Below, one piece after another: positions 56,603 to 59,490 of a stretch of DNA of 64,000 nt. Numbering within the stretch: the first letter of the stretch is position 1; the number at the start of each line of letters is the position of its first letter. A model generated the notes under the pieces. It ran no database searches. It was not told where the DNA came from and worked only from the letters and a program-made list of their open reading frames with translations. A program made the translations under genes and the position numbers. This DNA comes from Aliarcobacter sp. Lineage in GTDB: Bacteria > Campylobacterota > Campylobacteria > Campylobacterales > Arcobacteraceae. The stretch is from the NCBI GenBank assembly GCA_028688995.1, contig JAQTXB010000005.1:39816-103815 (forward strand), written 5' to 3'.

Positions 56603-57682
56603 GTGAAAATAGGAAAGTATGAGATAAAACATCCAATAATTCAAGGTGGAATGGGTGTAGGAATTAGTTGGGATCAATTAGCAGGTAATGTAAGTTTAGA
56701 AGGTGGATTAGGTGTTATATCTGCCGTTGGAACAGGTTACTACAAAAATAAAAGTGAAAATGTTCATATTGTTACAAAAAAAGACAAGCCAAAAGATGTA
56801 GCTAATTTTTATAATAGGGAAGCACTTTTTGAAATAATTGCAAATGCAAGAAAAATTTGTGGTAATGCACCCCTTGCATGTAATGTATTATATGCGATTA
56901 ACGATTATGGAAGAGTTGTAAGAGACGCTTGTGAAGCAGGTGCTAATATAATTATTACAGGAGCAGGACTTCCTACAAATATGCCAGAATTTACAAAAGA
57001 TTTTCCTGATGTTGCACTTGTACCAATTGTTTCAAGTGCAAGAGCATTAAAATTAATCTGTAAAAAATGGCAAAGATATAATAAACTTCCGGATGCTATT
57101 ATTGTTGAAGGTCCATTAAGTGGTGGGCATCAAGGTTTTACTTATGAACAATGTACTCAAGAAGAGTATCAACTTGAGAATATAATTGGTCCAGTAATCG
57201 AAGAAGCTAAAAATTGGGGAAATATTCCAATAATTGCAGCTGGTGGAATTTGGGACAAAAAAGATATTGATAAATTTTTAGCAATGGGTTGTGCTGGTGT
57301 TCAAATGGCAACTAGATTTATAGGTACTTTTGAATGTGATGCTGATGCTAAATTTAAAAATGTATTATTAAATGCTAAAGCTGAAGATATACAGCTTATG
57401 AAATCTCCTGTTGGACTTCCAGCACGTGGAGTTATGACTAATTTACAATTTTCTATTGAAAATAAAACAGCTCCAAAAGTTCAATGTATATCAAACTGCG
57501 TAGCTCCTTGTAATAGAGGACATGAAGCAAAACTTGTTGGTTATTGTATTGCAGATAGATTAAGTGCAGCTTATCAAGGTGACACAGAAACAGGTTTATT
57601 CTTTTCAGGTTCAAATGGATACAGAATTGAAAAAATTATCTCTGTTAAAGAACTTATGGAAAAATTAACTAAAGGAGAATAA
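56603..57682 (+). CDS. Nitronate monooxygenase (2-nitropropane dioxygenase family)
   Basis: 359 residues, FMN-dependent TIM barrel: HPIIQGGMGVGISWDQLAG, ITGAGLPTNMPEF, VEGPLSGGHQGFTYE with the catalytic His, IAAGGIWDKKDIDKFLAMGC. Enzymes of this family detoxify propionate-3-nitronate, although some members act as enoyl-ACP reductases (FabK). A Cys-rich late segment (CISNCVAPCNRG) is unusual for the simplest members. The start is GTG after GAAAGGCTAGTT. It is followed directly by the amidase. Confidence 0.85.
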   Translation: MKIGKYEIKHPIIQGGMGVGISWDQLAGNVSLEGGLGVISAVGTGYYKNKSENVHIVTKKDKPKDVANFYNREALFEIIANARKICGNAPLACNVLYAINDYGRVVRDACEAGANIIITGAGLPTNMPEFTKDFPDVALVPIVSSARALKLICKKWQRYNKLPDAIIVEGPLSGGHQGFTYEQCTQEEYQLENIIGPVIEEAKNWGNIPIIAAGGIWDKKDIDKFLAMGCAGVQMATRFIGTFECDADAKFKNVLLNAKAEDIQLMKSPVGLPARGVMTNLQFSIENKTAPKVQCISNCVAPCNRGHEAKLVGYCIADRLSAAYQGDTETGLFFSGSNGYRIEKIISVKELMEKLTKGE

Positions 57683-57687
57683 AAATT
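57673..57687 (+). promoter_or_regulatory. Ribosome-binding site and AUU start of the amidase gene
   Basis: AGGAG at 57673-57677 is followed by seven bases and the AUU at 57685. The previous stop (57680-57682) lies between them, so translation is probably coupled. The frame is closed by a stop at 57670-57672, so no ATG, GTG or TTG start further upstream is possible. Confidence 0.65.
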
Positions 57688-59490
57688 TTTAAAAAATTTT
57701 TTATTCTCACCCTTTTAACCTTTAAACTATTAGTTGCTGCTGAGTCAATTAGTAGTTTAAATGAACAGTATCAGCTATCAAAAATGAATTATCTAAAAGC
57801 TGTTATGCAAAAAAATGAACAGCAAAAAATTGATGAACTAAAAAAAATAATATCAATTGGTGAAAAAATCAATAAAGATGTTCGACCTGATAAAAAGAAA
57901 CTAGAAATATTATTAGAAAGACAAAATGAAGCTTCTTTAAATAATACAAAAAATATTTCTGAAAAAACAAAATCAACTAATAACTCTAGTAATAAACTTT
58001 TTTCTATAAATTCTGTTCGCACTTCAGGTAATGATATAATCATTGACTTTAAAGATGATATAGATAATAGCTACATAAAATTCTTTAAATTAAATCAAAC
58101 TAAGTCATTTCGAAATGTTTTTGATATTACTGGATATTATAAAGATGCTATTCCTACAAGACTTGAAATAGATGGTGTTGATAAAATTACATTGGGTCAA
58201 TTTAAATCAGATGTATTAAGAATTGTTTTATCAAGTGATAAAAGTTTATCAACCTCTTATAAATTAAATAAACGACAAATTATAATTTCAGTTGATAGTT
58301 TACAACAAAAAAGCTCATCTAATAAAAGTATAAATGAGCCTAAAGTTGATGATAATAACCCTAGTTCAGAACCAATAAATATTGATACACAAAATACTAT
58401 TCGTTCAATTGATTCAAATGATAATAAAATTGTTGTAAAGTTTAATAAGGATTATTCTAAAAAGGACATCACTCAAATTTCAAAGAAAAATGGTCCAAAT
58501 TATGAATATACATTTGATATAAATGGTAAATACAAATATACAACTCCAACTAAATTAAACATTGATAATATAGATAATGTTACTGTTAATGATAATAAAA
58601 ATAGTGTACGAATAGTAATATCAAATAAAAGTAATCCTAAAATAACTTATTCTCTATCTTCAAGGGAATTAGTAATTAATATAATTAGTAATAGTAGTAG
58701 TCCAAATACAAATACTATTACAAAGAAAAAAGAAGAACCTATTAAAGAAGTTCCAACAGCTCTTCCCCCTTCTATCTCAGCACAAATGACTACTGGTGCA
58801 CCAAAAGGTAGGAAAAAGACTATTGTACTTGATGCTGGACATGGTGGAGATGATGTTGGTGCAGTAGGTCCAAATAAAAGATATGAAAAAGTCATAAATC
58901 TAAACGTAACTAAATATTTAGCTTCAATTCTAAAACAAAGAGGATATACAGTATATCTAACAAGAGATTCAGATTTTTTTATAAAAGTTATTGATAGAAC
59001 TGTTCTAGCGAATGAAAAAAATGCTGACTTATTTATGTCTATTCACACAAATGCAGTTCCATTAGAAAAAGCAAACGAAGTTGCAGGAATAGAAACATTC
59101 TTTTTAAGTCCTGCAAGGGAAGAAAGAGCAAAAAGAGTTGCTGCCCTAGAGAATAAATCAGATATTAGAGAAATGAGTGATTCATCAAAAGATGTATTTT
59201 TAGAGTCTCTAAATCGTCCAAGAATCACGGCTTCTCATAAATTTGCAATTGATGTTCAAGCTGGTATTTTACAATCAACAAGAAGTAAATATAAAGATAT
59301 TCAGGATTCTGGAGTTAGAGAAGGACCATTTTGGGTACTTGTAGGTGCGCAAATGCCTTCTATCTTAGTGGAAGTAGGATATATCTCTCATCCTGTTGAG
59401 GGGAAAAGATTATATGATAAGAGTTATCAACAACTATTAGCAAATGGAATTGCTAATGGTGTAGATTCTTATTTTTCAAAAAATCCTTAA
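57685..59490 (+). CDS. N-acetylmuramoyl-L-alanine amidase (AmiC-like) with probable AUU start
   Basis: Read from ATT 57685, the 601-residue product begins with a textbook signal peptide (FKKFFILTLLTFKLLVAA), and GGAG lies seven bases before the ATT. The first standard start, ATG 57784, has no ribosome-binding site and would remove the signal. The mature protein has a helical start, two AMIN-like domains (about 107-205 and 238-333) and an Amidase_3 domain (378-598) with the Zn ligands: His386 in DAGHGG, a Glu in RYEKV, His in SIHTNA, plus catalytic Glu in VEVGYISHP. It cleaves septal peptidoglycan cross-bridge stems to separate daughter cells. Its 3' end overlaps the convergent NUDIX gene by 38 bp. 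Confidence 0.9.
   Translation: MFKKFFILTLLTFKLLVAAESISSLNEQYQLSKMNYLKAVMQKNEQQKIDELKKIISIGEKINKDVRPDKKKLEILLERQNEASLNNTKNISEKTKSTNNSSNKLFSINSVRTSGNDIIIDFKDDIDNSYIKFFKLNQTKSFRNVFDITGYYKDAIPTRLEIDGVDKITLGQFKSDVLRIVLSSDKSLSTSYKLNKRQIIISVDSLQQKSSSNKSINEPKVDDNNPSSEPINIDTQNTIRSIDSNDNKIVVKFNKDYSKKDITQISKKNGPNYEYTFDINGKYKYTTPTKLNIDNIDNVTVNDNKNSVRIVISNKSNPKITYSLSSRELVINIISNSSSPNTNTITKKKEEPIKEVPTALPPSISAQMTTGAPKGRKKTIVLDAGHGGDDVGAVGPNKRYEKVINLNVTKYLASILKQRGYTVYLTRDSDFFIKVIDRTVLANEKNADLFMSIHTNAVPLEKANEVAGIETFFLSPAREERAKRVAALENKSDIREMSDSSKDVFLESLNRPRITASHKFAIDVQAGILQSTRSKYKDIQDSGVREGPFWVLVGAQMPSILVEVGYISHPVEGKRLYDKSYQQLLANGIANGVDSYFSKNP

Follow-up and report, generated by a model that had tools for sequence, protein, structure and literature searches.

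Start codons other than AUG, GUG and UUG are, to our knowledge, rare and short-lived. The infC gene for initiation factor IF3 starts with AUU or AUA in E. coli and S. aureus and, like the amidase gene described here, has a start of the AUH class (AUU, AUA or AUC) with a strong Shine-Dalgarno (SD) sequence that is kept in relatives. In pcnB of E. coli, a gene unrelated to the amidase, AUU limits translation of the chromosomal gene, according to Binns and Masters (2002) as cited in PMC13009471. The genes cvfC1 (AUU) and ccpN (AUA) of Staphylococcus aureus have conserved start codons and an extended SD, and such AUU or AUA starts with a strong SD give about 10% of the output of AUG (PMC13009471). 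In Borrelia burgdorferi, annotation missed the AUU of pncA (BBE22) and thereby truncated a needed N-terminus (PMC13398362), as it does for the amidase. Switches from AUG to AUU have been counted once among 61,358 ancestral AUG starts (PMC5622118), and among the papers searched none reported AUU starts in Arcobacter or Epsilonproteobacteria.

Anatomy of the amidase start site

The window, by which we mean the whole stretch of 64,000 nucleotides of an Aliarcobacter genome that was analysed, carries on its forward strand a gene for an N-acetylmuramoyl-L-alanine amidase of 601 residues (57685–59490) with a signal peptide, an AMIN and an Amidase_3 domain, an assignment that draws on Pfam, NCBIfam and the structures 8c2o and 4bin. 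Amidase_3 was matched at 1e-45 (residues 380–594, 156 bits against a cut-off of 27) and AMIN at 1e-4 (residues 130–195), while the NCBIfam models for AmiA, AmiB and AmiC gave 104–109 bits, below their cut-offs of 400–700; as judged from these matches, the protein is akin to AmiA, AmiB and AmiC but no equivalog of theirs. It is preceded on the same strand by a gene for an NMO/FabK-like flavoprotein of the nitronate monooxygenase family (56603–57682; Pfam NMO, 1e-83; 115 bits with the NCBIfam FabK model, under its cut-off), which tyrS precedes in turn, and the gene pair is kept in the family. The layout is that of a coupled pair, in which stop and start lie within a few nucleotides of each other and the upstream gene harbours the SD: its final codons, AAA GGA GAA TAA, contain the SD of the amidase (AAGGAG, 57672–57677), and its stop codon (57680–57682) lies 2 nt before the AUU (ATT in the DNA, 57685–57687), all on the forward strand.

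The amidase frame is closed upstream by a TAA at 57670–57672 and extends to 59490. The ATT stands 7 nt after the GGAG of the SD, and the first ATG, GTG or TTG in frame is the ATG at 57784–57786 (forward strand), 33 codons downstream, for which the automatic start scorer found no SD. The original prediction had taken the ATT to be the sole in-frame position after the SD; its spacing of 7 nt stands, but a second in-frame AUH codon, ATA 57679, also lies past the SD, at a spacing of 1 nt, and is absent from some relatives. Read from the ATT, the N-terminus is IFKKFFILTLLTFKLLVAA|ES, by eye and hydropathy a typical signal peptide of 19 residues (57685–57741, forward strand) with likely cleavage at VAA|ES; the best 12-residue Kyte–Doolittle mean is 2.3 from ATT 57685 as against at most −0.1 from ATG 57784. 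The gene has an AUH codon in frame and at a proper distance from the SD, without a usable AUG, GUG or UUG, and both codon and SD are kept in relatives.

Among 343 ORFs scored in the window and 17 further stretches of the same genome (404 kb), the amidase was the only clear and unconfounded case of an AUH codon that has a strong SD and lacks a standard start nearby; therefore, this genome does not use AUH starts freely. The scan yielded three further AUH candidates. One of them, threonine dehydratase-like by eye (L309), has a normal-looking ATG further down, and another (L303) has a standard start upstream. The third (L316) is a sensor histidine kinase with a likely ATA start 6 nt after AGGAG (L316:5464–6834, this copy on the reverse strand, equal to G000:C11:25464–26834; also at G000:C8:51096–52466). 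This ATA start is conserved in 8 genomes, with an in-frame TAG just before the ATA in three, but the codon falls in the GYK codons of an overlapping response regulator (IRGVGYKL), so that its conservation is confounded. The kinase-bearing stretches of 4.4 kb (L319 and L328, from contigs C8 and C11 of G000) are 100% identical, reflecting a recent duplication or an assembly repeat. The initiator tRNA is of the ordinary CAU type and present in three copies. Arcobacteraceae infC has a conserved TTG AGT start, not AUU, in nearly all of 30 genomes read (L202–L231), and this non-AUG start might serve autoregulation.

The aligned start codon in Campylobacterota

Reading of the gene pair covered nearly all of the 20 Arcobacteraceae genera; in those genomes where the automatic picker had chosen an AUH codon further upstream, at a spacing of 4 nt, the start was reassigned by alignment. 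In 74 genomes, which represent 13 genera, alignment places ATT at this position in 66, ATA in 4, ATC in 3, TTG in 1 and ATG in 0. Thirty of them, every gene-bearing genome of the window's own genus, divide into ATT 22, ATA 4, ATC 3, TTG 1 and ATG 0, and twelve more genera (g2, g3, g4, g9, g11 and g13–g19) have ATT in 44 of 44 genomes read. With no ATG at the aligned site in relatives, the earlier claim of an AUU start is strongly supported by the relatives' codons as well as by SD spacing and the signal peptide. Genera g5, g7, g8, g12 and g20 use TTG, ATG or GTG at the amidase start; with ATG or TTG in use among relatives, the amidase gene does not strictly require AUU.

Across the AUH Arcobacteraceae, 0, 1 or 2 nt separate the upstream stop from the AUH codon. 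The ATT of these genomes comes after the stop of the upstream gene, and therefore no overlapping reading frame accounts for its conservation. A strong SD core (GGAG or GGGG) is found in 72 of the 73 AUH genomes compared with 7 of 19 family members that start with ATG, GTG or TTG (Fisher 2e-9), and the glycine codon of the SD is GGA in 68 of 73, though GGT is the commonest glycine codon elsewhere in that part of the gene; like all our statistics, these are naive, as the genomes are not independent. A stronger SD accompanying a weaker start is a published compensation pattern (PMC5622118).

AUH starts of this gene are conserved in about 100 related species, from Arcobacteraceae and other Campylobacterota families, and in the latter the upstream stop and the amidase start overlap or lie a few nucleotides apart. 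Family f4 has ATA at the aligned site in 12 of 12 genomes (one with an additional in-frame ATG upstream, two with an in-frame GTG too near the SD), family f18 has ATT, ATA or ATC in nearly all of 18 genomes and ATG in one, and AUH is likewise present in one member each of f7 and f11. In f10, f20, f22, f6 and f14, and in most genomes of f9 and of f7, the gene starts with an ATG that overlaps the upstream gene's end. A quick tree of the amidase and the upstream C-terminus gave at least 9 switches between AUH and standard codons and 26 changes among all codons; third-base switches among AUH codons occurred several times, a change from AUH to AUG in place not once, and both ATG cases within AUH families use an ATG at a different position. 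The AUH Arcobacteraceae fall almost entirely into one clade; hence the origins are few and the genome counts are not phylogenetically independent. The f4 loci (L248–L258 and L171), where the amidase start is invariantly ATA, have 49% GC, and ATA is a minor Ile codon there.

Alternative explanations and a proposed mechanism

An annotation artefact, in which ATG 57784 or another standard codon is the true start and the region upstream is a leader, is very improbable. The standard ORF listing does give ATG 57784, but this codon lacks an SD and would strip the signal peptide from a periplasmic enzyme; moreover, the residues leading up to it (LNEQYxxAKM) are conserved and many relatives have Ile or Val in place of its Met, so that initiation there is not credible, as had been predicted. 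A base error, or a strain-specific mutation of ATG to ATT, was an early caution and would be conceivable in a draft genome of 31 contigs; its probability is now negligible. Independent assemblies, complete single-contig genomes among them, carry the identical ATT at protein identities of 82%, 77% and below, as do 13 genera, which excludes a lone error and has already refuted this reading. A programmed frameshift from the upstream gene into the amidase frame, giving a fusion product, could draw on the amidase frame being open for four codons before the ATT, where the upstream stop is located. We nevertheless regard it as highly improbable: the frame offset varies by species (0, 1 or 2 nt) while the AUU is constant, and in one genome (G087) both genes share a single frame with a stop between them, which disfavours a fusion and makes the ATT itself look like the kept feature; a signal peptide in mid-protein would also make little sense.

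The AUU could instead be a neutral relic, efficient enough through coupling and a strong SD, with no drive back to AUG and no regulation, which we consider unlikely though far from negligible. The genomes are very AT-rich (28% GC at the Arcobacteraceae loci), so that changes to G are rare, and the naive probability of zero ATG from the internal ATN mix, calculated over non-independent genomes, is 5e-4 for Arcobacteraceae (f1), 0.25 for f4 and 0.14 for f18, so that lack of ATG alone is not significant in the last two. Against a relic, the third base does not follow codon usage in equally naive counts (ATT in 66 of 73 Arcobacteraceae starts versus 49% of Ile codons; ATA in 11 of 11 f4 starts in this comparison versus 27%), reversion of GUG and UUG starts to AUG runs at 2–4% even between close relatives (PMC5622118), and a strong SD is associated with AUH codons. 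Similarly doubtful is a leading regulatory role, with the AUU secondary, for a hairpin (57675–57708, forward strand; arms 57675–57685 and 57698–57708) that ribosomes would open as they terminate on the upstream gene, and here the tests disagree. In the fold of the window, the SD and the A of AUU pair in a stem with signal-peptide codons, the SD with a pairing probability of 0.94 versus 0.48 in control genes, and most Arcobacteraceae genera with AUU show the stem. Compared with synonymous shuffles, the sequences of 72 relatives are more stably folded (mean −10.0 versus −7.5 kcal/mol), an excess not seen in control genes. Leader swaps between genera, however, change little (p about 0.07), families f4 and f18 have no hairpin excess over synonymous shuffles, and a purine-rich SD pairs readily with the Leu and Phe codons of any signal peptide (0.61 in hydrophobic controls). 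The masking of SD and AUU by a hairpin is thus kept as a candidate, a lead for further work.

The reading that we favour, and hold to be quite probable, is that AUU 57685 is the true start of the periplasmic amidase, a weak codon kept by selection, coupled to the upstream gene and possibly responsive to IF3. Comparison with relatives supports the position and conservation of the start, the strong SD and the adjacent stop. From known biology, the ordinary initiator tRNA (CAU) would decode AUU with a third-base mismatch, assisted by the strong SD at good spacing. Retention of the weak codon by selection would keep amidase synthesis low relative to the strength of the SD, and the finding that none of about 100 species with AUH has switched in place to AUG suggests such selection. 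Synthesis is probably tied to ribosomes completing the FabK/NMO-like gene, with the SD in its last codons and its stop 2 nt away. Because the proposed start is weak and upstream-coupled, it may also respond to IF3 activity; IF3 disfavours weak third-base pairs at the start (PMC10158994), and excess IF3 lowers re-initiation in E. coli (PMC2268962). The originally predicted regulation by IF3 levels and the upstream stop fits this anatomy, in which a strong SD lies in the upstream end, the stop is 0–2 nt off in Arcobacteraceae and AUH has never become AUG in place.

Judging from the comparison, conservation of the weak start most likely serves to restrict a cell-wall hydrolase and to couple it to the FabK-like gene. 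Overexpression of AmiA in C. jejuni increases dipeptides in the peptidoglycan (PMC6767375), and by analogy this rise is a possible reason for a low amidase dose. More speculatively, and as a possibility to be held tentatively, Campylobacterota lineages may possess a conserved translational valve on a cell-separation amidase, built from AUH, a strong SD in the upstream gene, an adjacent stop and, in Arcobacteraceae, the hairpin, such that synthesis would track upstream translation and IF3; AUH might then mark a small regulon, with the sensor kinase as second candidate.

The amidase among known AUU and AUA starts

The persistence of an AUH start in about 100 species, across several families of one phylum, concerns a gene for a cell-wall-cutting enzyme. 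ORF finders of the standard kind admit only ATG, GTG and TTG; they set the amidase start 33 codons late here, with loss of the signal peptide, and related species are open to the same error of annotation. We anticipate that the natural set of variants (AUU, AUA, AUC, UUG and AUG) is well suited to testing weak starts as setters of protein dose.

In Campylobacterota, C. jejuni amiA represents the studied type of these amidase genes (PMC6767375), although C. jejuni was not identified among the genomes used here; in the sampled genomes of f10, f20 and f22, the same type of gene stands behind an NMO-like gene and, unlike the AUU case, uses an ordinary ATG that overlaps the upstream end. The amidase differs from infC in being a cell-wall hydrolase and not IF3, so that direct feedback does not apply, and infC of Arcobacteraceae itself starts with TTG. 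Conservation of cvfC1 is reported among Staphylococci, whereas the AUH of the amidase spans several Campylobacterota families. The starts of cvfC1 and ccpN are experimentally proven, and genetic and biochemical data together with a crystal structure back that of pncA (BBE22), whereas the amidase start is supported here by sequence comparison. On that comparison, the amidase is a new and unusually deeply conserved AUH-start gene, to be placed beside infC, pcnB, Borrelia pncA and cvfC1/ccpN.
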